Assembly: GCA_946403965.1 (NCBI GenBank)
Contig: CAMJBT010000031.1
Coordinates: 1 to 34,666, forward strand
Direction of reading: 5' to 3'
DNA: 34,666 bases
Origin: an uncultured Pseudobutyrivibrio sp.
GTDB lineage: Bacteria; Bacillota; Clostridia; Lachnospirales; Lachnospiraceae
Below the pieces are notes generated by a model, which saw nothing but the letters and a program-made list of their open reading frames with translations, ran no database searches and was not told where the DNA came from. Both the position numbers and the translations under genes were made by a program. The first letter of the stretch is position 1, and each line of letters begins with the position of its first letter. Of the stretch, positions 5,799 to 34,666 are shown piece after piece.

Positions 5799-5856
5799 AA
5801 GGTTCAAATAAATTTAATAATTAGGCATGAATCTATGGCGATTAAGGTGATATTTT

Positions 5857-6339
5857 ATGTTGGATAAATATATTGAAATCTCTATATATGCAGTAATATG
5901 TGTATCTCTAATAATAGTATTATATGTTTTAAAACGTAATCACTATCCATTTACCCCTCTTACAGAAAATCTAAAGTCTGAAATAAAAAAATATGGACTT
6001 GTTCACTTTACATCTTCGTACAGAAAAGATATAATTGAACAAAGCAAAACCATGAAATCCGGCGATTCACTTTCTGGTAGTTTAAAGCGGAGTGCGATGT
6101 ACCGAGCCGAAAAAGGACTTATTTGGTTTTATTCAGGTAAGAATAAATTTACAGATTTAAGTGAGAAAAGTCAAAGGATACTGCACAAAAGAGAATGTGA
6201 GTTTGAGTGTAGATTTACAGATATTTCAGATGAAGATTTGAATAGAATAACATACAGAAAAAAAGACCTGGCTTTTGTATATAGAGGAACAATTGATATA
6301 AGTAGAATCAAGATTGAAAGGATATCTTTCGATAGGTAA
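5857..6339 (+). CDS. Membrane-anchored protein of unknown function, possible ART-like fold
   Basis: A GGTGATATTTT ribosome site precedes the ATG. Residues about 8-27 form one transmembrane helix, followed by KRNHYP, so the roughly 130-residue domain should face the cytoplasm. That domain opens with YGLVHFTSSYRKDIIEQ and continues through AMYRAEKGLIWFYSGK, resembling the H-x-T...II(L) opening of ADP-ribosyltransferase-like families (KptA, DarT, DUF952 types), then ends in short beta segments (CEFECRFTDIS, FVYRGTIDIS). The resemblance is weak. It is the first of four closely spaced genes up to 9859 and lies next to a KptA fragment. Confidence 0.6.
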   Translation: MLDKYIEISIYAVICVSLIIVLYVLKRNHYPFTPLTENLKSEIKKYGLVHFTSSYRKDIIEQSKTMKSGDSLSGSLKRSAMYRAEKGLIWFYSGKNKFTDLSEKSQRILHKRECEFECRFTDISDEDLNRITYRKKDLAFVYRGTIDISRIKIERISFDR

Positions 6340-6373
6340 CCAGCTATAAGCGTGATTGCAGATTGGAGAGAAA

Positions 6374-7402: not shown

Positions 7403-7454
7403 TAAAGAATATGTTACCTACACTTGCAGCTTTTTTACGAAAGGAAGATATCAC

Positions 7455-10495: not shown

Positions 10496-11061
10496 ACAGC
10501 TACAAGAGGAGGTTTTCAATGGGCAATGATGCGAAATTATACCGCCGTTTCCTCGATGGTGATGACAATGGACTTGCTGAGCTGATTGATATATATAATG
10601 AAGGCTTGTCGCTTTATATAAATAGTATTGTCAATAATATTTGTGAAGCTGAAGAATTGATGCAGGAAACATTTGTTAAAATAGCAATCAAAAAACCTGG
10701 ATTTAATGGCAAATATACATTTAAAACTTGGCTGTATACGATTGCAAGGAATTGTACATATGATTATTTACGTCACAGATCGAGGTATGCAGATTTTACA
10801 ATAGACGAATGCTTTTATCTTTCAGACGAGATTGATATTGAGAGAAAGTATCTCATTGATGAGCAAAAAATCGAACTTCATAAAGCTATGCAAAAAATAA
10901 AGCCTGATTATTCCCAAGTTCTGTACCTGATGTATTTTGAAAATTTCAAGACAGATGATATTGCGAGAATAATGCATAAATCAAAAAGCCAAATCAAAGA
11001 TTTGATATATAGAGCAAAAAAGTCATTGAAATCTGAATTGGAAAGGGCTGGCTTTATTTAT
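10496..11061 (+). repeat. 566-bp direct repeat, copy 1 (sigma gene)
   Basis: From ACAGCTACAAGAGG to the end of the sigma factor body this stretch matches 13465-14030 without gaps. All differences I can see (about six) fall in the first 65 bases; the following roughly 500 bases are identical. The match ends inside the last codons of the gene. Confidence 0.9.
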
Positions 11062-11079
11062 ACGGATTTATCAAAATAG
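10519..11079 (+). CDS. ECF-type RNA polymerase sigma factor, copy 1 (no anti-sigma partner)
   Basis: The start has a strong ribosome site, AAGAGGAGG. The 186 residues hold sigma region 2 (about 15-95, including EAEELMQETFVKI and FKTWLYTIARNCTYDYLRHRSR, the -10 binding and melting part) and region 4 (about 120-175, helix-turn-helix IARIMHKSKSQIKDLIYRAKKSL, the -35 binding part). It directs core RNA polymerase to special promoters. It is nearly identical to copy 2 (K6 versus E6 and a different last few residues: TDLSK instead of EEL). Unlike copy 2 it is followed by a terminator and not by an anti-sigma gene. Likely targets are the TGCGAAAAAA/CGTTTAATATATAGA promoters at 11192 and 13416. Confidence 0.92.
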   Translation: MGNDAKLYRRFLDGDDNGLAELIDIYNEGLSLYINSIVNNICEAEELMQETFVKIAIKKPGFNGKYTFKTWLYTIARNCTYDYLRHRSRYADFTIDECFYLSDEIDIERKYLIDEQKIELHKAMQKIKPDYSQVLYLMYFENFKTDDIARIMHKSKSQIKDLIYRAKKSLKSELERAGFIYTDLSK

Positions 11080-11268: not shown

Positions 11269-13335
11269 ATGAAAAATAAATTGAAACTAAAGATTTTTGG
11301 TATATTCTCAGGCTTGACAATAATCTTTACACATACAATAGTTCATGTATATGCAGGGGATTACCAGCCTTATGATCGTATGCAAGACTTAATAATGCTT
11401 GACGGAGAAAAGCAAGAATTATCAGTAGAGAAGGAATTGAAGTATCAAGAAGTTCCTGTTAAGTCATTTACGATCAGCAATCTTTCTCCCGATATTACAA
11501 CCAATTTTGACTATACTGATTGGTGGTATAGTGAATGGGAGGATTGTCGTTATGTATTTCTTCCTGTTACTGCTGATCGCAGTAATCTCATTATTACCTA
11601 TAGTGCCGATGAAACGCTATATTTAAATGGTCAGGCTATTAAGTCGGGAGAAATGACCTCGATGTTAGTTGATGCTGATACATTTCAAATTACTGTCGGA
11701 GATAAAGATTGCGGTACACTGAAGATTATGCAATCTAACATTGGGTGTATCTATCTGTCGACATCACACGGCGGATTGAATACTCTTGATAATAACCGAA
11801 GTGTTATAATAACTGGAAAAGCCCTGATGCTGAATGCAGATGGAGGTACTGAATACAATGGTAATATTGAAAAGCTTACAGCACACGGGAATTCCTCATG
11901 GGATTACAGTAAAAAAAAGCCGTACAACTTGAAACTGCCGCAAAAGGAAAACCTATATGGTATGGGAAAAGCAAAGAAGTGGGCTTTATTGGCGAATTAT
12001 CTCGATCACTCTATGATGAGGAATAAGTTGACAGAAGAAATGTGCAAGGCGGCAGGAATGGAATACGTTATGGATTCTGCTTTTGTTGATCTTTATGCTG
12101 ACGGCTCATATCGTGGCACATATCAGCTTTATGAACGAGTGCAGATACAGAAGAACCGTATCAATATTCGTGATTTGGAGGAAGTGACCGAAAAGCTGAA
12201 CAGCCGTGACCTCAATGAGTATACACAATGGGTATTTGGTGCTGATAGTGCAAACGAATATAAGGAAAACAGCTATAAATATTATGATATTCCCAATAAT
12301 CCTGAAGATATAACAGGTGGTTATCTGTTGCAGTTTCAGCAATGGAACAGATACGGCTATAAATGTAAAAGCGGATTCGTAACATCAAGAGGACAGGCTA
12401 TCGGCATTGACGGTCCTGAGTATGCTTCAAAAGCACAAGTCGAATATATCCGTTCGTTTGTGCAGGATATGGAAGATGCAATATATTCTGACAACGGATA
12501 TAATGCCAAAGGCAAGCATTACAGCGACTATCTTGATGAGGAATCACTTATTATCGCATATCTTGTGCAGGAGATCAGCGAAAATATTGATGCCACATAT
12601 TCCAGCTTTTATCTGTGGAAGGATTCGGACTTTACTGGTGACGGCAAGATGCATTTCAGTCCGGCGTGGGATTTTGACCTTGCTTATAATAACTTCCCGA
12701 CATTGCGTGTCAATTCAGACGGAAATATCGGCTATTCGTATAAGCCTGATAATCTGTTCGCCGCATATTTCCCCATACATGGCTATGAGGACGGCGGACA
12801 GACCTCATCTTCTGGCAGTGGTCGTCCGACTGTCGGTATTAGTTGGATCGGACAGCTTTATAAGCAGGACAATTTCAAAAAGCGTGTGGCAGAGATATAT
12901 TTTGAACGATTTGAGCCGTATCTGTCGTCGCTGAACGATAATGATAATCTGAATTTATTCAAAATGGCTGAAAATATCCGTCCCTCGGCTGAAATGAACA
13001 ATGCTCGGTGGCACACCTATGGTGGTGCAAGTTATTCTGTGTTTGGTTCTGCAACAAGTGGCACATCATTTATGGAGTCTGTGAACAAGGTAGGCGATTA
13101 CATTCATCATAGAGCTGACTGGCTGAATGATCTATGGAAACCATATACCTATGTCAAGGGTGATGTGAATGGTGACGGCGAGTTTAATGTATCCGATGTT
13201 GCATTATTACAGAAGTGGCTGCTTGCCGTACCCGATATACCTCTGTCGCAATGGCGGGCTGCTGACCTGTGTAAAGATGATAGATTAGATGTATTTGATT
13301 TGTGTCTGATGAAGCGAGAACTGCTGTACCAATAA
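11269..13335 (+). CDS. Secreted CotH-family protein with C-terminal dockerin
   Basis: GAGGAG at 11251 and the signal peptide (MKNKLKLK plus hydrophobic core, cleavage near VYA-GD) support this start. After a beta-rich N-terminal part come CotH kinase signatures: HGNSSWDYSKKKPYNLKL, KKWALLANYLDHSMMRNKL, YRGTYQLYERVQ, and the catalytic-type MHFSPAWDFDLAYNN. CotH proteins are atypical kinases that phosphorylate other exported proteins; dockerin-linked forms occur in cellulosome-type Ruminococcaceae. The C-terminus (about 625-688) is a type I dockerin with GDVNGDGEFNVSDVALLQKW and the second repeat CKDDRLDVFDLCLMKREL, so the enzyme should be anchored to a cohesin scaffold. Its upstream ECF-type promoter matches that of sigma copy 2, placing it in the sigma regulon. 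Confidence 0.9.
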   Translation: MKNKLKLKIFGIFSGLTIIFTHTIVHVYAGDYQPYDRMQDLIMLDGEKQELSVEKELKYQEVPVKSFTISNLSPDITTNFDYTDWWYSEWEDCRYVFLPVTADRSNLIITYSADETLYLNGQAIKSGEMTSMLVDADTFQITVGDKDCGTLKIMQSNIGCIYLSTSHGGLNTLDNNRSVIITGKALMLNADGGTEYNGNIEKLTAHGNSSWDYSKKKPYNLKLPQKENLYGMGKAKKWALLANYLDHSMMRNKLTEEMCKAAGMEYVMDSAFVDLYADGSYRGTYQLYERVQIQKNRINIRDLEEVTEKLNSRDLNEYTQWVFGADSANEYKENSYKYYDIPNNPEDITGGYLLQFQQWNRYGYKCKSGFVTSRGQAIGIDGPEYASKAQVEYIRSFVQDMEDAIYSDNGYNAKGKHYSDYLDEESLIIAYLVQEISENIDATYSSFYLWKDSDFTGDGKMHFSPAWDFDLAYNNFPTLRVNSDGNIGYSYKPDNLFAAYFPIHGYEDGGQTSSSGSGRPTVGISWIGQLYKQDNFKKRVAEIYFERFEPYLSSLNDNDNLNLFKMAENIRPSAEMNNARWHTYGGASYSVFGSATSGTSFMESVNKVGDYIHHRADWLNDLWKPYTYVKGDVNGDGEFNVSDVALLQKWLLAVPDIPLSQWRAADLCKDDRLDVFDLCLMKRELLYQ

Positions 13336-13452: not shown

Positions 13453-13464
13453 AAAGGATGATAT

Positions 13465-14030
13465 ACAGCTACAAGAGGAGGTCTCCAATGGGTAATGATG
13501 CGGAACTATACCGCCGTTTTCTCGATGGTGATGACAATGGACTTGCTGAGCTGATTGATATATATAATGAAGGCTTGTCGCTTTATATAAATAGTATTGT
13601 CAATAATATTTGTGAAGCTGAAGAATTGATGCAGGAAACATTTGTTAAAATAGCAATCAAAAAACCTGGATTTAATGGCAAATATACATTTAAAACTTGG
13701 CTGTATACGATTGCAAGGAATTGTACATATGATTATTTACGTCACAGATCGAGGTATGCAGATTTTACAATAGACGAATGCTTTTATCTTTCAGACGAGA
13801 TTGATATTGAGAGAAAGTATCTCATTGATGAGCAAAAAATCGAACTTCATAAAGCTATGCAAAAAATAAAGCCTGATTATTCCCAAGTTCTGTACCTGAT
13901 GTATTTTGAAAATTTCAAGACAGATGATATTGCGAGAATAATGCATAAATCAAAAAGCCAAATCAAAGATTTGATATATAGAGCAAAAAAGTCATTGAAA
14001 TCTGAATTGGAAAGGGCTGGCTTTATTTAT
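13465..14030 (+). repeat. 566-bp direct repeat, copy 2 (sigma gene)
   Basis: Gap-free counterpart of 10496-11061 at an offset of 2969 bp. The flanking DNA on both sides is unrelated, so only the sigma gene and its ribosome site were copied. Confidence 0.9.
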
Positions 14031-14042
14031 GAAGAACTCTAA
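13488..14042 (+). CDS. ECF-type RNA polymerase sigma factor, copy 2 (with anti-sigma partner)
   Basis: AGAGGAGG selects the ATG at 13488, giving 184 residues; the frame upstream to 13458 includes the ribosome site and is not used. Regions 2 and 4 are as in copy 1, with only E6 and the C-terminal residues EEL differing. The stop lies 14 bp inside the following membrane-protein gene, the usual arrangement of an ECF sigma with its anti-sigma. It sits behind an ECF-type promoter, so it probably drives its own transcription and that of its inhibitor. Confidence 0.92.
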   Translation: MGNDAELYRRFLDGDDNGLAELIDIYNEGLSLYINSIVNNICEAEELMQETFVKIAIKKPGFNGKYTFKTWLYTIARNCTYDYLRHRSRYADFTIDECFYLSDEIDIERKYLIDEQKIELHKAMQKIKPDYSQVLYLMYFENFKTDDIARIMHKSKSQIKDLIYRAKKSLKSELERAGFIYEEL

Positions 14043-22676: not shown

Positions 22677-23429
22677 GTGACGGAAATGAATATTGAACAG
22701 AGAATTGATGAGTTTATGCATGAGTTATGCCAAAAAGCTCAAGAAGCTATTGATAATGGTAAAACTTATGATTTTAATGTTGGCGATTTTATAGCCAAAT
22801 ATAGCAATAGGAAAATTTCGGACATAAAATCAGAACCTATAGACAAATGGACTGAATATGGATGGGTTCCAATTTTACCGTCATTCAAAGGAAATGACAT
22901 ATTAAGTACGCTTATTCCTCCTGATAATTCAGAAAAAGCTGACGATTTTATGATGAAAAAGCTCAATAAGCATGAAATAGATACGATGTTTAATGAACTG
23001 CATAAATATGCAAATTTGTATAATCACAATGATAATACTTTATCTGAGGCTATTTCTGCTTTTAATAATCAGTTATATTCAGGATGTTCCTTGCTATTGT
23101 TTGCGATGATTGATGCCTGTTTTATTACTTTTCAACCGACTTCTTCAAAAAGTCGCCGCGCTCTTGCGGAAAGAGCAGCTAAAGATAAAATAGAGAACAT
23201 AGATTCATATCGACTTTCATGTGCCAATATAACACTATGTATTATCAAAGAGATTTTCAAAAATGCCGATGATTTTGCCACTGTAAATGATAACAAACTA
23301 AATCGAAATTTTTTGTCACATGGAATGAATAAGTATATGCCAACCTATAAAGATTGTCTAAAGGTATTTGTGCTGCTTTATAGTACATATGTTTTATTTG
23401 ATACAAATGTATTTAAATGGAAGAAGTGA
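22677..23429 (+). CDS. HEPN-domain protein (probable RNase), partner of the KAP NTPase
   Basis: AGGAGAG at 22662-22668 sits 8 bases before a GTG at 22677; an ATG at 22656 lies upstream of that site and one at 22686 follows, so the exact start is open. The about 250-residue protein is helical. Its C-terminal part carries the catalytic HEPN signature R-x4-H as NRNFLSHGM (R210, H215), preceded by a helix SGCSLLLFAMIDACF and followed by a long hydrophobic helix, as in HEPN ribonucleases of toxin and abortive-infection systems. Its stop lies 13 bp inside the next gene, a P-loop NTPase, which suggests a two-protein unit in which the NTPase controls the RNase. Confidence 0.7.
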   Translation: MTEMNIEQRIDEFMHELCQKAQEAIDNGKTYDFNVGDFIAKYSNRKISDIKSEPIDKWTEYGWVPILPSFKGNDILSTLIPPDNSEKADDFMMKKLNKHEIDTMFNELHKYANLYNHNDNTLSEAISAFNNQLYSGCSLLLFAMIDACFITFQPTSSKSRRALAERAAKDKIENIDSYRLSCANITLCIIKEIFKNADDFATVNDNKLNRNFLSHGMNKYMPTYKDCLKVFVLLYSTYVLFDTNVFKWKK

Positions 23430-25222
23430 AGAAAAATATGACATATGATGAACTAAATGAATTTATACTCAACTACCTCAAAAACGATATTACCGGAAGA
23501 GCCATTATGCTTAGCGGAGAATGGGGAGTTGGCAAAAGTCACTATATCAAAAACGAACTGAAGCCATTCATCATAAAAAAGGAAAAGAAATGTATTATAG
23601 TATCACTATATGGACTTTCTGATATAACTGAAATTAGTAAGGCTATTTTTCTTGAACTACATCCGCTCATAAAAAAACTATTGCCAGCAAAGAGTACGGC
23701 ACAAGCTGTGGGCAAAACTCTTCTAAATGCAGTATCAAATAAAATTGGTTTCGATATTGATAATCCGAGCGAAGAAACCTTAAAACAACTTTATGAATCC
23801 ATAAACCTTTCTGGGACACTGGTCATATTAGAGGATATCGAGCGAACTCAGATTGAAATTACCAAGCTACTGGGCTATATAAATAATCTTTGCGAAAATG
23901 ATCACGCCAAAGTATTGCTTATTACAAATGAAAACGAGTTACTAATGACATATGAAGGTACTAACAGCGAAGGAAAGAAAGTTAGATATTATACCGATTC
24001 AGCAATTGCATATAAAAGAATTAAGGAAAAAACTGTTGGAGATACAGTACGTTTCGTCTGTGACTTTAAATCTGCTATACATACTATAATAGGCTCATTC
24101 GGTATATATCTCAATAAATATAATACTGAAAAAAGTATCGAAGATATATTAAATATCTTCATGCGGTTGAATTCATTTAATTTGAGAGCTTTCATTTACG
24201 GCTGTCAAAAGTGTAAAAATCTTTTTGAGTTTATTTCAGATCGGAATATTATTATTAACGATAGAATTGAGGAAATGATTTTTTACGGAGTCATTGCGTT
24301 TACGCAACGAAAAAGCAAGGATTCGAATATCAAATTTGACTCTGATGTATACTTATCAGGGAGATTAGGAGTGGATGACAAATTACCTTTATTCCGTTTT
24401 TGCTATGATTACATTGAGTACCAGATGATTTCGGAAGAAGAAATCAAGAAATCGGTATCATACTATTCAGAATATTTAAAAAAAGGAAAATGGAATTCAG
24501 GCAGAGATAAAGATCTTAAGGTTATTAAGGCACATTATGTTGAAACAGAGAATAAAGTTAGAAAGGCTCTTTTAAATATTCCTAAAAAGATTATGGACGG
24601 ATCTATACCATATCATGATTATGGCGTTCTTGCTAATTGTGTCGTTGCTATTAGATATGACGCAGATATAGATTTTGACATTGAGGAAATTATAAAACCA
24701 ATAATTGATAGCCTAAAAACGATAAGTGACAATATTGATTTTGAGTCCTTATTTAGTTCGGGATATACTATATCAAGTAATGAGGGAATCGAGTATTTCA
24801 AAAAAGTAAAGCAAAGAATGAAAGACGCCTTAACTGGAGTATATGAGAATGATGAATTTCCATATACTCCTTCTGAAGTAAAAGACTACTACAAAAAGCT
24901 TACAAAAGAATCAAGAGAATATCTCAGAAGGAGAGGATTTGCTTATAAAATTGATATTAAGAGATTGATTTTTATGCTTAAACACTCCTCTTCTGAGGTC
25001 ATTAGTATTATCAGATCATTGTTTATGGAATTATATAGTGATGATTATACTTTTCGCGCTTCTGAGGAAGACATAAGTGCTTTAATTTCAATTCGTGATT
25101 CACTCGCTGTCCTTAGTGATTATAAGCAATATGACAAAATACAAAAAATGCAAATTAAGTGGTTTATCCAAAACTTATCAGATATGGTAATTGCTTTTGG
25201 AACTAAGAATTCAAATAAATAA
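23417..25222 (+). CDS. KAP-like P-loop NTPase
   Basis: The frame starts 13 bp inside the HEPN gene; an ATG at 23438 just after the HEPN stop is an alternative, and neither has a strong ribosome site. Walker A is GEWGVGKS (34-41), Walker B LVILEDIER (135-143), followed by a sensor-like VLLITNEN. The W-G-x-G-K-S form together with EDIER is typical of KAP and related STAND-like NTPases. The remaining roughly 420 residues are helical and Lys/Glu-rich without clear membrane helices, unlike many KAP proteins. The likely role is sensing and NTP-driven switching, here of the HEPN partner. Confidence 0.8.
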   Translation: MEEVKKNMTYDELNEFILNYLKNDITGRAIMLSGEWGVGKSHYIKNELKPFIIKKEKKCIIVSLYGLSDITEISKAIFLELHPLIKKLLPAKSTAQAVGKTLLNAVSNKIGFDIDNPSEETLKQLYESINLSGTLVILEDIERTQIEITKLLGYINNLCENDHAKVLLITNENELLMTYEGTNSEGKKVRYYTDSAIAYKRIKEKTVGDTVRFVCDFKSAIHTIIGSFGIYLNKYNTEKSIEDILNIFMRLNSFNLRAFIYGCQKCKNLFEFISDRNIIINDRIEEMIFYGVIAFTQRKSKDSNIKFDSDVYLSGRLGVDDKLPLFRFCYDYIEYQMISEEEIKKSVSYYSEYLKKGKWNSGRDKDLKVIKAHYVETENKVRKALLNIPKKIMDGSIPYHDYGVLANCVVAIRYDADIDFDIEEIIKPIIDSLKTISDNIDFESLFSSGYTISSNEGIEYFKKVKQRMKDALTGVYENDEFPYTPSEVKDYYKKLTKESREYLRRRGFAYKIDIKRLIFMLKHSSSEVISIIRSLFMELYSDDYTFRASEEDISALISIRDSLAVLSDYKQYDKIQKMQIKWFIQNLSDMVIAFGTKNSNK

Positions 25223-25293: not shown

Positions 25294-25322
25294 TTGACAA
25301 TTTAAAACAAATGTTTTATAAT
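25294..25322 (+). promoter_or_regulatory. Perfect consensus sigma-A promoter with palindromic operator in the spacer
   Basis: TTGACA at 25294-25299, 17 bases, TATAAT at 25317-25322. Within it lies TAAAAC (25303-25308), AAAT, GTTTTA (25313-25318), a perfect 6-bp inverted repeat covering spacer and -10 start. A bound dimer there would block polymerase; the XRE protein encoded next is the obvious candidate. Confidence 0.7.
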
Positions 25323-25359
25323 TGTAATATATTCAATGATGGAAAGGCGAAGTTGAAAA

Positions 25360-25569
25360 ATGACAATTTCTGAACAAATAAAGATTCTGTGCGTGTGTTC
25401 GAATATTAGTATCTCCGAATTAGCAAGAAGATTAGGAAAAACACCACAATCCTTTAATGCTAAATTAAAAAGGGGGAGCTTTACAATTGACGAGTTAATA
25501 AGTATTTCTGAGGTTGTTGATGCTAAGTTTTTACGTTATTTTATATTACCAAATGGTGAAAAAATATGA
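25360..25569 (+). CDS. XRE-family HTH regulator (69 aa)
   Basis: An AAAGG lies upstream of the ATG. Almost the whole protein is one helix-turn-helix of the Cro/CI class: ISISELARRLGKTPQSFNAKLKRG is the HTH (helices 2-3), followed by FTIDELISISEVVDAKFLRYF. It is likely a dimeric repressor of its own operon, acting at the palindrome in the promoter. Its stop overlaps the next start by four bases (ATGA), so regulator and downstream nuclease-like protein are translated together. Confidence 0.88.
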   Translation: MTISEQIKILCVCSNISISELARRLGKTPQSFNAKLKRGSFTIDELISISEVVDAKFLRYFILPNGEKI

Positions 25570-26333
25570 TTGATAAAAATAAAGAAGGATATTTAGCGAA
25601 AGATAACGTAGTTGTTTTTTATAATTCGGACGCGGATATTGGATACTATGCTAGGACAAGCACAAAGGGTAAAGAATTAGATCTTGTAAATAAATATATT
25701 GACTATTTAAAATTAGTGTATTCTAGGATGAAAACGAAAAGAGCTGCGATTTTTATTGAACCATTGCTTGAAACAGGTTATCCTGATATAGTGGTAGTTG
25801 AATATTATTCTACCCCAGATTTACAATGGAATGATTTGCGAAAATCACTTAATAGTACTGATTTAAAAATTCTATTCTTTATTCAAACAATGAAAAATAC
25901 GTCAATTGACATTATAAATGAAATGTTGGGATATTCATTTGAGATTATTCAAGGTACTGTTAAGAGATTATCTGCCTGTGGATTGATAAGATTATCAAAA
26001 GACAAATCTAATATTAAGAGTATTGCGATAAGTAGATATTGTCGTGTTAATAAAATAATTGCTATTGAAGCAAAAATTGACAAATGGAGAGATGCTATTT
26101 GTCAAGCTACTAAGAATATTTGGTTTGCTTCAGAATCATATATTTTGTTGAATAAAAAAACTTGTTCGGCTGAAGTGATAAATGCATGTTGCGAAAATGG
26201 AATAGGAATAATTACAATTAATGGTAAAGTTAATAAAATATTACCTGGAAGAAATGGCTATTTCCCAGTATCATACGCCTCACTTCAGTTTAATGAATTT
26301 TTGCTTCGCTGGTTTTATAGAAAGGAGTCTTAG
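25566..26333 (+). CDS. PD-(D/E)xK nuclease-like protein with inserted winged helix
   Basis: The start overlaps the XRE stop (ATGA). Residues 60-80 read AIFIEPLLETGYPDIVVVEY, giving E65 and PD at 73-74; residues 164-181 read KIIAIEAKIDKWRDAICQA, giving E168-x-K170 and a following Gln. Order and spacing fit a PD-(D/E)xK nuclease core. Between the two halves (about 95-155) lies a winged-helix-like segment (LKILFFIQTMKNTSIDIINE, then VKRLSACGLIRLSKD). After the core comes IWFASESYILLNKK, common in this nuclease-like group. It may cut DNA or RNA or act as a DNA-binding regulator. The ribosome site of the kinase (AAAGGAG) lies in its last codons. Confidence 0.65.
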   Translation: MIDKNKEGYLAKDNVVVFYNSDADIGYYARTSTKGKELDLVNKYIDYLKLVYSRMKTKRAAIFIEPLLETGYPDIVVVEYYSTPDLQWNDLRKSLNSTDLKILFFIQTMKNTSIDIINEMLGYSFEIIQGTVKRLSACGLIRLSKDKSNIKSIAISRYCRVNKIIAIEAKIDKWRDAICQATKNIWFASESYILLNKKTCSAEVINACCENGIGIITINGKVNKILPGRNGYFPVSYASLQFNEFLLRWFYRKES

Positions 26334-26335
26334 AT

Positions 26336-27181
26336 ATGAATCTATCTGAGTTGAAATCAAGATTTAAAATAAATGATAAGCCCAAAAAAGGAGGGCAAAA
26401 AATTGTTTATCGCGCAATTGGAAATAATGGTGAAAAATATGCTTTAAAAATTATTTCAAATACCAAAGATCCCAGAGTGATTCAAGAAATAACAATTCTT
26501 AAAGAATTAAATATTGATAACACTCCTAAGATTGTTGAAACTGGTATTGTATATGATGAAGGGATAGATGAAGATGTGTTATACATTGTTGAGCAGTATA
26601 TAGATGGAGTTTCTTTGCGAGATTGGTTGAATTTAGGTAATAAAACTAGTCTTTCTAAAGCTTTTGAAATCCTTAATACGTTGCTTGTAATAGAAGTTCA
26701 ACTTGAAGAGAATAATATACTTCACAGAGACATTAATCCCAATAATATAATTTTAGGGCAAGACGGATTAATCTATTTAATAGATTTTGGGCTAGCTAAA
26801 GTAATTGGTGGTCAATCTATTACGATGACAGCTGCAACACATGGGCCGTTTACTCCTGGTTATGCTCCTTTTGAACAGGTTGCAAATAATAAGATGCAGC
26901 AGGATGTACGAACTGATTTATTTCAAATTGGAGTTACAGTTTATGAATGTTGTACCGGTAAAAATCCGTTTGTAAAACCTCAAGATGGAATATTTCAAAT
27001 AGTATCTAGAACAATGACATTTGTTCCGCCGTCGTTAATTCTTGAAGGCGATACTAAAGGACTATTTGCACAGTTTGTTAATATGCTTATGGCTAAGAAT
27101 CAATCCCAGCGTCCTAACACTGCGGCAGATGCCCTTAGATATTTAAATGTAATAAAAACTACACTTGTTTTGGAGGATTAA
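26336..27181 (+). CDS. Soluble Hanks-type Ser/Thr protein kinase
   Basis: AAAGGAG at 26321 gives a clear start two bases after the previous stop. The 281 residues are just a kinase domain: Gly-rich loop KKGGQKIVYRA (18-27), ATP-binding K38 in YALKI, helix-C E51, HRD at 130-132 (LHRDINPNN), DFG at 150-152, and GYAPFEQ (175-181) in place of APE. All catalytic residues are present, so it should be active. There is no transmembrane helix or PASTA domain, unlike housekeeping PrkC/StkP. Tight linkage to the nuclease-like and TIM-barrel genes suggests it phosphorylates one of them. Confidence 0.9.
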   Translation: MNLSELKSRFKINDKPKKGGQKIVYRAIGNNGEKYALKIISNTKDPRVIQEITILKELNIDNTPKIVETGIVYDEGIDEDVLYIVEQYIDGVSLRDWLNLGNKTSLSKAFEILNTLLVIEVQLEENNILHRDINPNNIILGQDGLIYLIDFGLAKVIGGQSITMTAATHGPFTPGYAPFEQVANNKMQQDVRTDLFQIGVTVYECCTGKNPFVKPQDGIFQIVSRTMTFVPPSLILEGDTKGLFAQFVNMLMAKNQSQRPNTAADALRYLNVIKTTLVLED

Positions 27182-27182
27182 G

Positions 27183-28391
27183 ATGGAGTTATATTTGCAA
27201 TTAGGTCATGGAATGCAAAATTTGGCACAGGAATTATTAGGAATATGGGGAAAAGGGAATGTTATTATAAGCCCTGTAAACATTCAGAGGGACAAATTGA
27301 AGCGTTTTGCAAAAAAAATACGTTCCTGTGGTGGACAGGTTCTTTTTGATCCTCAAATGTTTTATCCTAAAGAGGGACATGAAAAATTACAAGCATATGA
27401 CTATTGGTTGCCAGAAGGAGTATCTATTACTTCGGAGGATGGATATAAAACAATTGATCAAGAACTATATAGAATTAATCAGGAAATTGAGAGTTCATGC
27501 ATAATACTTCCAGGAATAGAAATGAACGAACAATTATTTACATATGGAATTAAGTGGATGAAAGAATCTGCATCATATTTTTTAAACAAGACAGAAAAAC
27601 CATTGCTTGCAACATTATGTTTATATCCAGAAACTATCCGTAACAATGAAGCAATTGAAAATTTAGTTGAAAGGCTAAAAAATATGCCTGTACACGGTTA
27701 TTATGTTATTCCACATCCATCTAATAATGAATATATTATTTCTGATCCTATGTGGGTAGTTGGAATGATGAAATTATTAACATGTTTAAAACTTATGAAT
27801 AAAAAGGTAGTTGTTGGCTATTCAAATCATCAAAGTTTGATATATGCATTAGCTAAAGTTGATGCGATTGCTTCTGGAACATATATGAATACTCGATCTT
27901 TTGTGCCATCAAAGTTTAAATCGCCTAAAGATGATGGTATAAAAAATAAAAGTACATGGTACTATCTTCCATCGGCTTTTTGTGAGTATAAAGCTGCATT
28001 ATTGGATGTTGCTTTTCATAGAGGATTTCTTGATTTATTCTATTCATTAGGAGAATTTAATAATCAATATTCTGATATACTTTTTAAAGGTGCGCTTCCA
28101 TCAAGTACTAATTATAATGAGTCCAATTCTTTTAAGCATTATCTTTACTGTTTGAAGATACAATGTGATATGCTTTCATTAAAAACATATAAAGAAACTT
28201 ATGATACATACGAATTTATGCTGCAAACTGCAGAAAATCAGCTGAAAGAAATAAAGAAAAAAGGAATGAGTGGTCAAAATCGAGATTTTTCACCTGCTAT
28301 AGAAGTGAACAGAATTGCAATGTGCGCTAACGATGAGGATTATGGGTTAAAACTCAGGCTTGATTGGGACTGCGGAGATGTGCTTATATAA
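27183..28391 (+). CDS. TIM-barrel-like protein of unknown function (402 aa)
   Basis: GGAGG at 27172-27176 lies in the kinase's last codons and gives an ATG at 27183, one base after the kinase stop. The sequence alternates strand and helix eight times: ELYLQLG, NVIISPVNI, GQVLFDP, SCIILPG, LLATLCLY, HGYYVIPHP, KVVVGYS, and DAIASGTYM. This is the pattern of a (beta/alpha)8 barrel, perhaps near the tRNA-guanine transglycosylase type (compare the DpdA proteins of defence islands), but no family motif is certain. A helical C-terminal part of about 110 residues follows (KAALLDVAFHRGFLDLFYS). Likely an enzyme and the effector or substrate of the kinase operon. Confidence 0.6.
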   Translation: MELYLQLGHGMQNLAQELLGIWGKGNVIISPVNIQRDKLKRFAKKIRSCGGQVLFDPQMFYPKEGHEKLQAYDYWLPEGVSITSEDGYKTIDQELYRINQEIESSCIILPGIEMNEQLFTYGIKWMKESASYFLNKTEKPLLATLCLYPETIRNNEAIENLVERLKNMPVHGYYVIPHPSNNEYIISDPMWVVGMMKLLTCLKLMNKKVVVGYSNHQSLIYALAKVDAIASGTYMNTRSFVPSKFKSPKDDGIKNKSTWYYLPSAFCEYKAALLDVAFHRGFLDLFYSLGEFNNQYSDILFKGALPSSTNYNESNSFKHYLYCLKIQCDMLSLKTYKETYDTYEFMLQTAENQLKEIKKKGMSGQNRDFSPAIEVNRIAMCANDEDYGLKLRLDWDCGDVLI

Positions 28392-28476: not shown

Positions 28477-28531
28477 TAATAAAATCTTACTCGATGCTTA
28501 CTTTGTAATTTATGTGAAAGGATATTGTTTT

Positions 28532-28981
28532 ATGCTTCGAATATACTATGGAGAGCCTGAATCTCCTAAATATATTTTTAATCCTGATGTTTTTTTTAAT
28601 AATACCTATGAAGAAGAGTGGATCACAGATCCTCTTTCGATGAAGATGATAAAAGATATAGATGGTTCTGAAGTTAAAGGTTCTAGACTTATAGATAGTC
28701 CATTTTTGGGAGCTATACCCACAGAGAGATTATCAGGTGGCGTCAAGACACTTATTCTTATGAATTTTGATACAGAACATATTTTTAATGCTTCAGCTTG
28801 TGGAGACAACTGCGCTTCATGGATACTTAAAATTGCTCAGAATAAGGATATCACAATCAGATTGGGGTACCTTATGAATTTTGGAGAGTCTCGTTTTAAT
28901 ATTGAGATCGTAAATATTAATAAAATTGTTCACACTATGAAAGAACTGAATGAAGCGGTATTAGACAATCAACTTATCTGA
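28532..28981 (+). CDS. DUF4869 family protein
   Basis: GAAAGG upstream selects the ATG at 28532 (149 residues). The sequence has the family features: MLRIYYGEPESPKYIFNPDVFF at the start, TYEEEWITDPLSMKMIKDID, SPFLGAIP.ERLSGGVKTLILM, and FNASACGDNCASWILKIA followed by IVHTMKELNEA. The family is small, soluble and without known function; it is typically followed by a P-loop ATPase gene, as here 12 bp downstream. It could be the regulator or effector of that ATPase. Confidence 0.85.
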   Translation: MLRIYYGEPESPKYIFNPDVFFNNTYEEEWITDPLSMKMIKDIDGSEVKGSRLIDSPFLGAIPTERLSGGVKTLILMNFDTEHIFNASACGDNCASWILKIAQNKDITIRLGYLMNFGESRFNIEIVNINKIVHTMKELNEAVLDNQLI

Positions 28982-28993
28982 GGTAGTGGTAAT

Positions 28994-29995
28994 ATGGTTG
29001 GGAAATATGAAATCAAGGTATATAACAATAAGGTCCAATATAAATTGACAATTAAACGAAATATAACGATTTTGCAGGGAAACAGTGCTACCGGAAAAAC
29101 TGAACTAATTCGTTTGATTAGTGAATATGAAGCTAATGGTGCATCTTCAGGCATTACACTTAACTGTGATAAAAAGTGTACTGTTTTAACTTCTGTCGAT
29201 TGGGAACTCAGATTGTTGAGCCTTAAGGAACATATCATTTTTATTGATGAAACTGCTAATTTCATAAAATCAAAAAGATTTGCAGAATTAGTAAAAGGTT
29301 CTGATAATTATTTTGTTATTGTAACGCGCGATGATTTGAGTCAGTTGCCATATAGTGTGGATGAAATATATGGATTAAAAAATGCGTCAGATAGTCAGAA
29401 ATATAAGAATTACAAGCGTATATATAATGAGATGTATAAGCTGTATTGTTTTGACGTTAGAGAAAGATTTGATCCTGATGTGGTTATAACAGAGGATTCC
29501 AATTCAGGACACGAACTATTCAGATTATTGTATAATGATAAGTGTATTGCAGCAAATGGAAAAAGCAATATATATCAATGCATTAGCAAGGCTAAACAAA
29601 AGAAAACTCTTGCGATAGTTGATGGTGCAGCGTTTGGATCAGAGATAGGCAAGATATATCGCTATATTGAAACAAGTCACATTAAATGCGTTTTATATGC
29701 ACCAGAATCCTTTGAATATTTATTGTTAGAGGCTGGCTTTGTGGATGTTCCTAAAGATATGCTGAAAAAAACTCATCAATATGCAGATAGTGTAAAGTAT
29801 ATGAGTTGGGAGGAATATTATACTGATCTTTTATTCCAAAAAACTAGAGATACTGTATATAAGTATAAAAAGTCTAAATTAGCATCAGCATATAAAACGG
29901 AAACGGCGTTGACAAAGATTTTATCCGTTATTCCAAATAAAATCATTCCTAATAATTCTTTTAATAATAAGCGTGAAAATGATGAAGAAAAATGA
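28994..29995 (+). CDS. P-loop ATPase with TOPRIM-like C-terminal half (DUF4869 partner)
   Basis: The first half is an ATPase: ITILQGNSATGKTE (Walker A, 29-37) and EHIIFIDE (Walker B, 81-86), then FVIVTRDD as sensor. From residue about 160 a second domain has the order of conserved parts expected for a DUF4435/TOPRIM-like fold: VVITEDSNSG (E167, D168), CIAANGKSNI (GK 189-190), and TLAIVDGAAFGSEI (D210). An ATPase plus TOPRIM combination recalls the OLD family, but in a shorter form (333 aa) and lacking ABC signature motifs. A Lys/Asn-rich tail follows. The cut-down catalytic core makes nuclease activity uncertain. Likely acts with the DUF4869 protein. Confidence 0.7.
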   Translation: MVGKYEIKVYNNKVQYKLTIKRNITILQGNSATGKTELIRLISEYEANGASSGITLNCDKKCTVLTSVDWELRLLSLKEHIIFIDETANFIKSKRFAELVKGSDNYFVIVTRDDLSQLPYSVDEIYGLKNASDSQKYKNYKRIYNEMYKLYCFDVRERFDPDVVITEDSNSGHELFRLLYNDKCIAANGKSNIYQCISKAKQKKTLAIVDGAAFGSEIGKIYRYIETSHIKCVLYAPESFEYLLLEAGFVDVPKDMLKKTHQYADSVKYMSWEEYYTDLLFQKTRDTVYKYKKSKLASAYKTETALTKILSVIPNKIIPNNSFNNKRENDEEK

Positions 29996-30101: not shown

Positions 30102-32126
30102 ATGGGAAATCAGTTTTTAACACAATGTAGTCTGTTCTACTGTAGCATCGATGATGTTCAGAGCACTTCACTAGCTTCAATTGTAGAATCATTACAAATG
30201 TATTCAGATAAAGAATCAAAACAAGTATATATACTCGACAGAATACTTGGAAACGAAAAGAAAACTAACTATAGTGCTTCAAATGTTGCTGTAATCCTTA
30301 TTCCTAAGCATCAAATCATTTTTTTGAATTATGGTAATAATTCGAAAAAGGGGCTTGATGACTTTAAATATGAATATATCGATGATTTAATGTTTCTTGC
30401 TAGAAACTTTGATTATTCTCTGATTCTTGGCAGACCACGTGATTGGAAAAATGATATTTGGTTTGATGTTAAAGATGTATCAGATTTTGATATTGATAAT
30501 TATGTAAAAACGGAGATAAAAAAATCCGAAGAACGTGCAATAGATTTACTTATTTCATTGGCTATTGGTTCAATTAACAGCATTGATAGAATTGGAACAG
30601 AAGAGCCTAAAAGCAAGCTTGAAAAAGTTAAAAGAAAAATAGTGCTTTTTGATGGTCAGCAAACAAAATTCATTTATAGCCATGATAGTGCTACTAAAAG
30701 AATAACTATTCAAGGCTTAGCAGGTACTGGAAAGACAGAACTGCTTATGAATAAACTAAAGGACATATACTTATCAAGTGATTCAATACGAGTTGCCTTT
30801 ACCTGTTTTAATAAAGTACTTGCAACAGAAATGAAAGAAAACCGAATTCCTCAATTTTTTAATTTTATGCAGGTTCGCAAGCAGATAGAATGGGGAACAA
30901 GACTTCATGCTTTTTCAAGTTGGGGTTCAAAGGGATTTCCAGAATCAGGATTATATAGTTATGTTACCAACTATTATGGAATTACTTTTTATAGGTTTTC
31001 CGAATGTAGAGATTTTGCAGTTGCTTGCCGCAAAGCAGTTGAAGAACTTAATGCTATAGAGGAGTTTGAGCCTTGTTTTGATTATGTTTTTATTGATGAA
31101 AGCCAAGATTTTAGTGAAGAGTTTTTTCAATTATGTGAGAAGGTAACTAAAGGAAAAGTGATAGTTGCTGGTGACATTTTTCAAAATATATTCGATTCAG
31201 ATAATTCTACAGAACAAGTTGATTTTCTTTTGAACAAGTGTTATAGAACTGAACCTAAAACATTAATGTTTGCTCATGCAATAGGAATGGGATTATATGA
31301 AGAACAAAAGGTTAATTGGCTAACAGATGAAGGATGGCGAAATTGTGGATATAATGTAAAACGCTACGATGGAAAAATCCAATTATCAAGAAGCCCTTTA
31401 CGTCGTTTTGAAGATCTTGATGCAACAGATACTATAAGATTTACTCTTATGGAGGAAGATAATGAAGTTGATAACACTATTACTGCAATAGAAAGTATTA
31501 TGCGTGATTATGAGGGCGTATCTCCTGACGATATTGCTATAGTGGTATTAAATCGTAATCATAATACAATGGTTTCATTAGTTAATAATATTTCGTATGA
31601 ATTATTCGATAAATTTGGATGGAATAGTAATAAAGGTTTTGAAACGAAGAAAAAAGTGCAAGGAACAGTATACATTAGTAATATCAATAATATAAAAGGC
31701 TTGGAATTCCCTTTTTTAATATGCGTATGTACTAATAAAATAACCAATAGCATTACTATAAGAAATCAAATATATACGGTATTAACACGTTCGTTTTTGG
31801 TTTCATATTTTTTGATTCAAAATGAAAACGAGGATTTCTTTAAAACATATATACAAGCACTCAAAGATATTAATGATAATGAATATATTGAAATAAATGA
31901 ACCTAATGAAGCGGAACGAAAACGTATTGAGACTCGCTTGGAAGAAGCAAAGAAACAGAAAAAGAGTGAATACGAAGATATAATAATTAGTTTTCTTGCA
32001 AGTAACCCTAGCATTTCAAGAGCTAAAATTGAAAGCAATGCACTTGAAATATACAATTCATTTGAAACCGATGATGAAATATTAAAGAAACTAACAGATC
32101 TTAGTAAGTTAATGGGGTGGATATGA
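30102..32126 (+). CDS. SF1 (UvrD/Rep-like) DNA helicase with N-terminal extension
   Basis: AAGGAG at 30088-30093 gives the start. Residues 1-190 are an unrecognised N-terminal domain. The helicase core follows: Q-like motif FDGQQTKFI (183-191), Walker A IQGLAGTGKTELL (203-215), motif Ia AFTCFNKVLA, Walker B YVFIDESQDF (328-337), CYRTEPKTL as motif IV, NIKGLEFPFLICV as motif V, and IYTVLTRS as motif VI. All motifs needed for ATP-driven DNA unwinding are present. A coiled, Lys/Glu-rich tail ends the 674-residue protein. The stop overlaps the next start (ATGA). Such helicases recur in phage defence, for instance GajB of Gabija. Confidence 0.88.
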   Translation: MGNQFLTQCSLFYCSIDDVQSTSLASIVESLQMYSDKESKQVYILDRILGNEKKTNYSASNVAVILIPKHQIIFLNYGNNSKKGLDDFKYEYIDDLMFLARNFDYSLILGRPRDWKNDIWFDVKDVSDFDIDNYVKTEIKKSEERAIDLLISLAIGSINSIDRIGTEEPKSKLEKVKRKIVLFDGQQTKFIYSHDSATKRITIQGLAGTGKTELLMNKLKDIYLSSDSIRVAFTCFNKVLATEMKENRIPQFFNFMQVRKQIEWGTRLHAFSSWGSKGFPESGLYSYVTNYYGITFYRFSECRDFAVACRKAVEELNAIEEFEPCFDYVFIDESQDFSEEFFQLCEKVTKGKVIVAGDIFQNIFDSDNSTEQVDFLLNKCYRTEPKTLMFAHAIGMGLYEEQKVNWLTDEGWRNCGYNVKRYDGKIQLSRSPLRRFEDLDATDTIRFTLMEEDNEVDNTITAIESIMRDYEGVSPDDIAIVVLNRNHNTMVSLVNNISYELFDKFGWNSNKGFETKKKVQGTVYISNINNIKGLEFPFLICVCTNKITNSITIRNQIYTVLTRSFLVSYFLIQNENEDFFKTYIQALKDINDNEYIEINEPNEAERKRIETRLEEAKKQKKSEYEDIIISFLASNPSISRAKIESNALEIYNSFETDDEILKKLTDLSKLMGWI

Positions 32127-32773
32127 AATTAATATCATTTACTAGAAATATTGACTCAAATCCAATACGAAATCGATTAGATATTATAAAGATAATTCTT
32201 CAAACTAATGATTATCTAATTGACAGGCAATATTCTCTTGTTCAATGCAATGAAAGAATTGATAAGAATTGTCCTTTTTTATATGTTGAAAAAATGAGTC
32301 GTTTATTTATTCCTGAGAATTCAGATGATCAGGTTCAAAAGTTATATAGTATAGTATTTCCGTTTTCATATAACGTTGAACAAAATGAATTATCAACCAC
32401 ACAAATAGCTATCAATAATTCTCTGAACTCTTGCCTAAAATCTATTGTATACTCTTTTGATAAAGCATTACCGGATTCTATGAACAAAATACAAGATTTT
32501 TGTTTGGAGGCTTGTGTGGATAACGATTTCCCAGATGTGCTTTATGAAATTGTTGTTACTATTCTTACTAGATTACTGACATTTGATGTTGGTTATATAA
32601 GGTATGATTATGATGAGGAGCATTACAATGGTAGAATTCATCCGCTACACCACTTGGATATAAATTATACTAATCAATCCACGTATAAAATCGGATTAAA
32701 TCAATCACTTGACATTTTGGAGTTCAAATCCATAATTGATAATCAGAAAGAGTGTTGGTTTTTACATAAATGA
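32123..32773 (+). CDS. Unknown protein coupled to the helicase, DUF2290-like pattern
   Basis: The ATG overlaps the helicase stop by four bases, and GGGGTGG lies just upstream. The 216-residue soluble protein starts with MKLISFTRNIDSNPIRNRL and contains YIRYDYDEEHYNGRIHPLHHLDINYTNQ, which resembles the core of DUF2290 (R-x-DYD ... HP-x-xHL), and ends with a hydrophobic-aromatic segment. I am not certain of the family. Coupling to the helicase gene implies the two work together. Confidence 0.6.
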   Translation: MKLISFTRNIDSNPIRNRLDIIKIILQTNDYLIDRQYSLVQCNERIDKNCPFLYVEKMSRLFIPENSDDQVQKLYSIVFPFSYNVEQNELSTTQIAINNSLNSCLKSIVYSFDKALPDSMNKIQDFCLEACVDNDFPDVLYEIVVTILTRLLTFDVGYIRYDYDEEHYNGRIHPLHHLDINYTNQSTYKIGLNQSLDILEFKSIIDNQKECWFLHK

Positions 32774-32822
32774 CGTTAAAACTTCACAATCAATAGTTTC
32801 TTTAATATTTCTAATATTTATA

Positions 32823-32850
32823 TTGTCATAATAATTTATGATAATATTAT
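32823..32850 (+). promoter_or_regulatory. Internal promoter with palindrome before the EEP nuclease gene
   Basis: TTGTCA at 32823-32828, 16 bases, TATTAT at 32845-32850. A perfect inverted repeat TCATAA (32826-32831) TAAT TTATGA (32836-32841) overlaps the -35. The EEP and TOPRIM genes may therefore be separately controlled. Confidence 0.4.
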
Positions 32851-32880
32851 AGTTCTATTAAAAGAGCGGGGGGGAATGAA

Positions 32881-33708
32881 GTGTTAAATATCTTATTCTG
32901 GAATTTGCATGGCAATTCCATTGAAGAAGTTATAGCAGAATGCTTGATTGAAAATAATATTTCTCTCGCTGCGTTTTCTGAATTTAGAGGTATTGATTTT
33001 ACTAAACTTGAAGGTTTGTTATTTAAACAATATCATCTTGTTCCGTCTTTGCGTGAGGAACCATCGCAAACGCAAGGTGTTATACATACTAGAATGTTTG
33101 TGAAAAATAACATTGAAGCAACTGCTATGCAAGAGCAAGGAAGGTACAGTATTTTCAAAATAAAAACAAGCATACAACAGTATATTTTAGCAACAATTCA
33201 TCTTCAAGATAGAATAAACAAAACAAATACTGATAGAATCAATACCATAAAGAGTATTAAATCTAATATTGAAAAATTTGAAAATGAACTTGAATGTTGC
33301 AATACAATAGTAATTGGAGATTTTAATGCTAATCCTTACGATGAAGAATTGCTTAGCGTTCATGCTTTTAATGCGGTTTTGTTTAAAGACCTTATTTTGG
33401 CTAATGAATATAGAACATATGAATACTTAGAATATAAGCATTTTTACAATCCTATACTTGATTTCATATCTGCTAGTAATGAAATGCATGGTAGTTTTTA
33501 CCACACAGGTGGTTCATATACACCTATTTGGCATTGTATCGATCAAATACTTTTGAGAAAAGAATTAGTACAATATTTTGAAGAACTAAAATATATAATG
33601 AAAATAGGAGATACTGATTTAATAAAAACAAAAAAACCTGATGGCTCAATAAGTGATCATTTGCCATTATTAGCAACTATCAAAGAGGAGGTAGATTCAG
33701 ATGAGTGA
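32881..33708 (+). CDS. Endonuclease/exonuclease/phosphatase (EEP) fold protein
   Basis: A G-rich ribosome site lies before the GTG start. The 275 residues carry the EEP motif series: N8 in FWNLHGN, E34 in AFSEFRG, H107 in LATIHLQD, D147 and N149 in VIGDFNANP, CIDQILLRKEL, and SDHLPLLATI near the end. These metal-binding and catalytic residues match DNase I/AP-endonuclease-type enzymes, so the protein should cleave a phosphodiester or phosphomonoester, probably in DNA. It has no signal peptide, so it acts in the cytoplasm. Its end overlaps the next gene by 8 bp, forming a unit with the TOPRIM protein and probably the helicase upstream. Confidence 0.85.
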   Translation: MLNILFWNLHGNSIEEVIAECLIENNISLAAFSEFRGIDFTKLEGLLFKQYHLVPSLREEPSQTQGVIHTRMFVKNNIEATAMQEQGRYSIFKIKTSIQQYILATIHLQDRINKTNTDRINTIKSIKSNIEKFENELECCNTIVIGDFNANPYDEELLSVHAFNAVLFKDLILANEYRTYEYLEYKHFYNPILDFISASNEMHGSFYHTGGSYTPIWHCIDQILLRKELVQYFEELKYIMKIGDTDLIKTKKPDGSISDHLPLLATIKEEVDSDE

Positions 33709-34666
33709 AAATTACTGGGGAAATATACTGCAATCTAATGATGAAAAAACAGATGGAATTATTAATATAATGAATGAGCAATGTAGGTATCTATCTGAAA
33801 ATACCAATCACAAGGTTTTAGCGGTCTTTGGTGAAATAAATAGAACCAATAATTATATTCAATCTGTTCTTAAGCCTCTTTTGGATTATTCATCTCTTAA
33901 TAGAAATAGAACCTACTCTGTTTTACAAGGCAAAGAATATATAGGTAGTGTTACAACGGAGAATAAAATTGATGCCGAAAGTATGTTTTACAGCAAGAAA
34001 TATGCATTTGAGATATATACAAAGACTTACAGATTCCGTTTATTTGAACTATTGCTTACACCGGCATATCCAATAGATATCACTATTGATGAGGGAATCT
34101 ATAATGATATTAGTGACAATTTAGTCGATTATAAAAATCAAAATGAAAAAAACAATAGCATTATCATTAATTCAGAATCTGAATTTTGTATAGTTTTAAA
34201 ATCACTTCTTCAAAACAGAAAAGTTAAATATGTTATAAATCAAATGCTTAAAAGGAGCGAAGAAGAACTTGCTAAAGAACATGGAAAAGATAGCAATGAA
34301 GTAAGAAAGAAAATTATTGTTTGCGAAGGCCCATCTGACGAAATTGTATTGCAAGCGTTAGCTCGAAAGCTAGAACGTTCAATTACCACAGTCGCGGCAG
34401 GTGGAAAACATCTTGTTCCTGCATATTTTGAAAGTATAAAAAAGCAGTATAAAGATGCTAAATTTCTAATTGTTGTAGATTCTGATGGCGATGAAAAAGG
34501 AACACGCTCATTTATTGAAGGTAAAATAGGAGAAAACACTTGTAATATTGTTATAATTAATAATAATATTGAGGATATGCTTGGTATTGATAGTAAAAAT
34601 TTAAGTGAATATAAATTAGCACAATCAATTATTGTAACTCTAGACAGTTTAGATGTTGAATCAAAG
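33701..34666 (+). CDS. TOPRIM-domain protein, 3' end outside window
   Basis: AGAGGAGG at 33684-33691 lies 9 bases before the ATG; the frame stays open for 322 codons to the window edge. The N-terminal about 200 residues are unrecognised (NHKVLAVFGEINRTNNYIQ, MFYSKKYAFEIYTKTYRFRLFE). From residue 203 a TOPRIM domain starts: KKIIVCEGPSDEIVL (E209), TTVAAGGKHLVP, and FLIVVDSDGDEKG (D260, D262). These are the conserved E and DxD of OLD-type nucleases. No ATPase motifs precede it, so it is not a full OLD protein; the ATPase role may lie with the upstream helicase. Confidence 0.85.
   Translation, partial: MSENYWGNILQSNDEKTDGIINIMNEQCRYLSENTNHKVLAVFGEINRTNNYIQSVLKPLLDYSSLNRNRTYSVLQGKEYIGSVTTENKIDAESMFYSKKYAFEIYTKTYRFRLFELLLTPAYPIDITIDEGIYNDISDNLVDYKNQNEKNNSIIINSESEFCIVLKSLLQNRKVKYVINQMLKRSEEELAKEHGKDSNEVRKKIIVCEGPSDEIVLQALARKLERSITTVAAGGKHLVPAYFESIKKQYKDAKFLIVVDSDGDEKGTRSFIEGKIGENTCNIVIINNNIEDMLGIDSKNLSEYKLAQSIIVTLDSLDVESK

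Follow-up and report, generated by a model that had tools for sequence, protein, structure and literature searches.

The window analysed here, a stretch of 34,666 nucleotides in contig 31 (CAMJBT010000031.1) of the 3.44-Mb genome of an uncultured Pseudobutyrivibrio sp. (GCA_946403965.1), carries three adjacent genes that are probably an unnamed antiviral system. The genes encode a nuclease-fold protein (NUC), a eukaryotic-like Ser/Thr protein kinase (KIN), and a barrel protein with the predicted fold of a tRNA-guanine transglycosylase (TGT), here called TIM. An antiviral role is proposed because the unit recurs in bacteria that are distant from one another, in archaea and in viral sequences, where genes for phage defence are often its neighbours. 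The computed support consists of a near-fixed gene content, co-varying evolutionary distances, active-site residues retained by both NUC and KIN, the predicted folds, frequent defence neighbours, and carriage on viral contigs. Because TIM and the nuclease part of NUC barely match family libraries, a kinase is probably almost all that annotation of such a locus would reveal.

In the initial annotation, the three genes and a preceding gene for an XRE-type protein were read as a candidate four-gene defence cassette. The tight packing on which that reading drew is confirmed by the open reading frames (ORFs), with a 4-bp overlap between XRE and NUC, and gaps of 2 bp and 1 bp separating NUC from KIN and KIN from TIM. 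Judging from the homologous loci, the conserved unit is NUC-KIN-TIM, three genes and not four, and the XRE gene is a lineage-specific addition outside it.

Composition and distribution of the three-gene unit

Relatives of TIM were collected from named genomes (19 loci), viral contigs, a haloarchaeal plasmid, and sampled genome sets, with two further loci (L093 and L094) found by a search with NUC instead of TIM. The resulting 39 distinct loci comprise 36 (34 found through TIM, plus L093 and L094) and the viral loci L101, L102 and L105. Identical or near-identical loci were left out (L001-L005, L007, L028, L067, L074, L100, L103, L104, and others among L043-L066, L081-L092, L108 and L109), as were the weak fragment L073, a contig end with NUC and KIN but no TIM (L095), two loci lacking TIM (L098 and L099), and a SIR2 variant that was counted apart (L096 and L097). 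The frameshifted TIM of L013 and the short TIM of L072 were retained among the 39 but excluded from the TIM conservation count, which covers 34 of 36 proteins.

The initial annotation had staked its defence reading on homologues of these proteins travelling together and on their not being housekeeping genes, and both expectations are borne out. KIN adjoins TIM in 38 of the 39 distinct loci, including a remainder beside a run of N in L017, the exception being L094, which lies at a contig end. NUC adjoins TIM in 36 of 39, the exceptions being L017 (the same N-run), L019, where a C-terminal remnant of NUC is all that is present (9.9 bits), and L070, where none was found. A transposon truncation of the L017 kinase was considered and ruled out, as the gap is a run of N. 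The usual order is NUC-KIN-TIM on one strand; L071 has the order KIN-TIM-NUC, and in the viral loci L029 and L105 KIN-TIM is met by a converging NUC.

Searching from the side of NUC gives a similar picture. The NUC profile matches 103 of 398 genomes sampled from the phylum, nearly all through the winged helix alone, and in 12 of these 398 genomes a match with E < 1e-5 extends past profile position 200. Eleven of these 12 adjoin a TIM-like or KIN gene, with the lone exception of genome G346 (L098). The L098 locus (1249-8199) encodes a protein matching the C-terminal half of NUC only, upstream of a gene judged by eye to be DUF1156-like, and contains no KIN or TIM matches. Pairwise distances between homologues are also correlated, for TIM and KIN (r 0.928, 32 loci), TIM and NUC (0.879, 31 loci), and KIN and NUC (0.883, 32 loci), and none of 2000 permutations reached any of the three values, although shared host ancestry alone also raises such values.

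The unit is accessory and sparsely spread. With the genome of the window itself included, the genomes carrying TIM number 1 of 29 in the genus, 3 of 299 sampled from the family, and 9 of 398 sampled from the phylum (two of them weak), and, with the centre genome included, 8 of 242 in Halobacteria; a housekeeping role is ruled out by its presence in the window's own genome only among the 29 of the genus. Record titles for the 19 named-genome loci include Clostridia, Enterococcus, Deltaproteobacteria, Spirochaetia, Auribacterota, Acidobacteria and two haloarchaea. Against 50,697 phage records, neither the window TIM nor that of viral locus L029 gave a match.

The nuclease-fold, kinase and barrel proteins

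NUC (25566..26333, forward strand, 255 aa) is predicted to adopt a PD-(D/E)xK nuclease fold split by an inserted winged helix at about residues 93-158 (25842..26039, forward strand), in agreement with the architecture proposed in the initial annotation and supported by both motif and predicted fold. The residues of the D...ExK motif, D74, E168 and K170, are present in 33 of 33 homologues, and their equivalents are invariant across 10 diverse rows of a further alignment. The predicted fold belongs to the PD-(D/E)xK superfamily, and also matches a type IIS restriction enzyme. For the nuclease part, the window protein has no credible match in NCBIfam or PADLOC, and a Pfam search with 21 members returned a single weak match to PDDEXK_9 among the first 25 of 39 families. 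Such strict retention of nuclease residues argues against a purely structural role for NUC.

KIN (26336..27181, forward strand, 281 aa) has only kinase-type matches in Pfam, among them Pkinase (E 1.6e-28), and its best sequence match in the PDB is PknB (E 4e-22). It carries the VAIK Lys, HRD Asp and DFG Asp of eukaryotic-like Ser/Thr kinases, and K38, E51, D132, N137 and D150 are each found in 34 of 34 homologues. The claim that the kinase possesses all catalytic residues was nearly, but not fully, right because the Lys of the HRDxK catalytic loop is Asn in the window protein (HRDINP, residue 134, positions 26735-26737). The HRDIN form is shared by 6 of the 34 homologues, namely the window protein and five close relatives. 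An activation-segment threonine, T163, is present in all 34 and may be a phosphosite. The best PADLOC match is PD-T4-6 (E 5e-40), though many kinase profiles match KIN.

TIM (27183..28391, forward strand, 402 aa) begins at an ATG codon at 27183. The barrel recognised in the initial annotation, for which structure prediction was proposed as a check, is supported by the predicted fold, which refines it to the TGT fold (PF01702). Among the matches listed, the folds closest to predicted TIM are tRNA-acting enzymes, and those listed in the VIA list are TGT entries only, with a margin over other barrels that is unreadable because TGT entries are very numerous in the PDB. In sequence, a Pfam search with 22 members at E 0.5 gave no PF01702 match, and credible matches to TIM were lacking in Pfam and PHROGs, searched with 22 members, and in NCBIfam and PADLOC, searched with the window protein.

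At the place of the TGT nucleophilic Asp in the last barrel strand, TIM columns 228-231 are without Asp in 34 of 34 rows, with a Glu at 230 in L094, and the nearby D227 is Asp in many of the 34 rows, but is not conserved. This placement was made by eye and by fold, and an ungapped segment scan against TGT is ambiguous: the beta-7 segment of TIM ranks first on beta-7 of TGT, the segment containing D56 is the top match at the nucleophile segment of TGT and takes second or third place at the DSG segment, and the last-strand segment of TIM is not the top match at the nucleophile. A CxCxxC...H zinc site was not seen by eye in the alignment of TIM proteins from the three-gene unit. The TIM pocket is conserved though the transferase nucleophile is missing, and because it is missing, base exchange by TIM is unlikely. 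The possibility that TIM is the ordinary TGT of this genome was ruled out, as a separate ordinary TGT is encoded elsewhere (L038).

Promoter and probable XRE repressor

Upstream of the four ORFs lies a perfect sigma-70 consensus promoter, TTGACA-17-TATAAT (25294..25322, forward strand). As claimed in the initial annotation, the match is perfect, and it is the only one in the window, compared with a mean of 0.06 in 100 shuffles, six of which contained one. The palindrome noted in its spacer is likewise real: a dyad, TAAAAC-AAAT-GTTTTA (25303..25318, no strand assigned), with perfect 6-bp arms when read by hand, covers the spacer and extends into the -10 element, and is a probable operator for XRE. 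The XRE gene (25360..25569, forward strand) encodes a 69-aa XRE/Cro-type DNA-binding protein that is a probable autorepressor, identified by its homologues and by helix-turn-helix matches in Pfam that are all weak and under cut-off (for instance HTH_26, E 0.0022).

Homologues 67-68% identical to the window XRE lie directly upstream of the unit in L008, L010 and L011. An alignment of the upstream DNA of these three loci and the window shows that TTGACA, the 17-bp spacer, and the dyad over the spacer and -10 are kept while most flanking columns vary. Compared by hand, the L011 dyad (TAAACG/CGTTTA) differs from that of the window (TAAAAC/GTTTTA) by two paired changes, and the L010 and L008 dyads have one mismatched pair each. 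Such paired changes might reflect an operator under selection. In the lineage of the window, the operon's XRE protein probably represses the strong promoter by way of the dyad that overlaps it, in which case the operon could be induced. XRE was rejected as a core part, as phmmer finds it in 6 of 23 distinct loci (L001-L029 and the window), and two of these (L012 and L015) do not have it immediately before NUC, so that the count falls to 4 of 23.

Genomic neighbourhoods and variants

Proximity to defence genes, another check proposed in the initial annotation, is evident in at least 13 of the 39 loci, where profile hidden Markov models (HMMs) confirmed a defence or DNA-methyltransferase neighbour; the neighbours were chosen by eye before the HMM searches, without control regions, and this count is a lower bound and not an enrichment. 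Most neighbours at the other loci were judged by eye only. In the window, the neighbour is a KAP-type NTPase (23417..25222, forward strand; KAP_NTPase 1.3e-9) of the PADLOC candidate defence family PDC-S49 (5.9e-47). In other cases, methyltransferases or restriction genes are found: D12 in L012, an N6 methyltransferase and specificity subunit in L018 (the latter overlapping NUC by 4 bp), type IIG in L020, C5 in L023, N6/N4 in L026, large restriction-methyltransferases in L022 and L024, and an HsdM fragment in L071. The remaining confirmed neighbours are AbiEi/AbiEii, 18 bp upstream, in L009, a Septu-type PtuA with an HNH protein in L010, PDC-S28 in L014, and DUF1156 and DUF499/HEPN in L068.

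The viral contigs L029 and L105 are distinct (their TIM proteins are 58% identical), and in both the module lies between repressor/M78-peptidase genes and an integrase, the interval in which lysogen-expressed cargo is usually sited. In L028, the gene preceding the module has a tape-measure match (E 1.4e-8).

Two kinds of variation in gene content are apparent. In 6 of 8 haloarchaeal loci (L025 and L074-L078), a gene judged by eye to encode a calcineurin-type phosphoesterase, with Pfam run on L025 only, directly follows TIM, and in viral L102 a Metallophos gene adjoins TIM on the opposite strand. In L096 (3289-6756) and L097 (6580-10111), a SIR2-like gene comes after NUC and a TIM-like gene, with no kinase match; SIR2_2 is over cut-off in L097 (E 2.5e-5), and under it in L096 (E 4.9e-4). 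The NUC proteins of this variant are without the winged helix, the TIM-like proteins carry CxCxxC and CVxH, a TGT-like zinc pattern, and there is an additional upstream gene, with a PDC-M19A match in L097. A search with the two TIM-like proteins found those 2 genomes only among the 398 of the phylum.

Comparison with known systems

Recruitment of TGT homologues to defence loci has been described for Dpd, the 7-deazaguanine restriction-modification system with the TGT homologue DpdA, and for BREX-related capture (BRC) (PMC12839542). Like Dpd, the present unit combines a nuclease with a protein of TGT fold at a locus of defence type, but it has a kinase, no PF01702 match, and no conserved Asp at the nucleophile place. 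A DpdB/DpdC-type partner or deazaguanine-synthesis gene was not recognised by eye among the neighbours listed, for which no HMM search was made. BRC differs in having PglZ, HerA/FtsK, DUF4007 and GNAT (PMC12839542), whereas NUC-KIN-TIM has a Ser/Thr kinase and winged-helix nuclease.

The combination of a nuclease and a Ser/Thr kinase in one defence unit is also seen in PglW of type 2 BREX and in some DndF, but these are large fused proteins with a NERD nuclease (PMC12839542), as opposed to the separate small genes and another nuclease type found here. Kinase-kinase-phosphatase (KKP) is a Ser/Thr kinase module tied to temperate phages (PMC11341870), to which the phosphoesterase of most haloarchaeal loci adds a further likeness; in place of two kinases and a phosphatase, the present unit has one kinase, a nuclease and a TGT-fold protein, and no phosphatase family was found among 10 window proteins scanned. 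The same 10 proteins lack the MADS set (mad1-mad8 with a methyltransferase), as there is no mad2, and the profiles matched are mad6 by KIN (2e-35), and otherwise only mad8 (8.4e-6) and mad1 (0.014). PD-T4-6 and Stk2, which have an anti-phage role, are small eukaryotic-like kinases like KIN. Both are single-gene systems, whereas KIN belongs to a three-gene unit in most loci. Kinase-repressor control by CapK/CapS (PMC13373217) and a defence system of E. coli that includes a Ser/Thr kinase domain (PMC9519451) have also been described. The NUC-KIN-TIM set is absent from the available portions of these four papers, and from the listed titles and openings of abstracts in the literature searched, a scope that leaves aside subscription papers and preprints, and so is not proof of novelty.

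Proposed mechanism and alternative explanations

The best explanation, held with moderate confidence, is that NUC-KIN-TIM is an accessory, horizontally spread module directed against phages (or mobile elements), in which TIM would use its TGT-like pocket to recognise the invader by a guanine-type base or by a feature of its nucleic acid, recognition would be relayed through phosphorylation by KIN, and this relay would license the winged-helix NUC to bind and cut DNA. The order of recogniser, relay and cutter is favoured because the NUC residues are strictly kept, DNA is the substrate suggested by the winged helix, and the TIM pocket is conserved without the transferase nucleophile.

Several points weigh against this explanation. 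The support for a defence module is computational throughout, and the assignment of sensor and effector among the three proteins is a guess. The link between TIM and TGT rests on predicted fold, the first Foldseek row for TIM is pyruvate kinase, and hhalign profile-profile comparison of TIM with TGT twice found nothing, although its positive control, TGT against phage DpdA, failed too. In addition, the neighbour count is no measure of enrichment, and L006, L008, L016 and L021 have no obvious defence neighbour by eye.

A possible, if unlikely, alternative is an abortive-infection or toxin-antitoxin unit in which KIN serves as the toxic effector, with NUC and TIM as sensor and restraint, a SIR2-like NADase in place of the kinase in some lineages, and the haloarchaeal phosphoesterase as a brake. 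The SIR2 variant and the phosphoesterases argue for KIN as a toxic output, and KKP works in this manner, with two kinases and a phosphatase (PMC11341870). Catalytic residues kept in every NUC homologue would not be expected of a mere restraint, however, there is no phosphatase family among the window neighbours scanned, and the SIR2 variant rests on two genomes. That the module regulates lysogeny or the maintenance of mobile elements, instead of immunity, appears improbable. This would account for the adjoining integrases in viral L029 and L105, and for genes recognised by eye, namely serine recombinases in L006, L012 and L017 and integrase-like genes near haloarchaeal L025, L075 and L079. Yet defence genes are equally usual cargo of mobile elements, inspection by eye of L018 and L020 revealed neighbouring restriction genes but no recombinase, and the NUC residues are strictly kept.

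Two further alternatives both conflict with the lack of a conserved Asp at the nucleophile place of TIM. If the substrate of TIM is tRNA, as is usual for TGT and for the enzymes with its closest listed folds, the module could block translation by altering or cutting tRNA during infection, but NUC has a winged helix, and a type IIS restriction enzyme is among the matches to its PD-(D/E)xK fold, which makes this quite improbable. Least credible is a Dpd-like, self-marking restriction system, in which TIM would put deazaguanine into host DNA and NUC would cut unmarked DNA; TGT homologues do so in Dpd systems (PMC12839542), and DNA methyltransferase neighbours are frequent, but the missing PF01702 match, and the failure to recognise a deazaguanine-synthesis gene by eye in the parts of the neighbourhoods listed, leave it very improbable.

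A more specific form of the preferred explanation can be put forward as a distinctly unlikely proposal: a phosphorylation-gated, base-reading restriction system of bacteria, archaea and temperate phages, in which a nucleophile-less TGT fold reads (or hydrolytically excises) the modified guanines by which phages evade ordinary restriction, the Ser/Thr kinase relays, and the winged-helix PD-(D/E)xK protein cuts, while a SIR2 effector can take the place of the kinase. The DNA of phage 9g, which contains deazaguanine, resisted about 71% of the type II enzymes tested (PMC5567051), and a module reading such modified bases beside restriction systems would complement them. PD-(D/E)xK nucleases and other DNA enzymes have been noted near tgt genes, and a kinase unit there is not described in the available portion of that paper (PMC5567051). 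If confirmed, the unit would add to immunity a new module present in two domains of life, put the TGT fold to a new use, and tie protein phosphorylation to a DNA-cutting enzyme; it also allows one to test directly whether there is a defence dedicated to phages that resist restriction through modified guanine.

Other features of the window

Downstream of the unit, a DUF4869 gene is followed by a P-loop protein weakly matching mad8 (28526-29995), and then by a second possible defence operon (30102-34666) with an STM2767-family helicase (NCBIfam E 6.5e-228), a gene of 218 aa, a gene weakly matching endo/exonuclease/phosphatase, and an OLD-type TOPRIM gene that is truncated where the contig ends. 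The helicase has a strong match only in its own genome among the 29 of the genus, and one weak match elsewhere. Further upstream in the window, two ORFs (10519-11079 and 13458-14042) encode near-identical proteins that appear sigma-factor-like by eye and flank a secreted dockerin-type protein (11269-13335), an arrangement read as a recent duplication.

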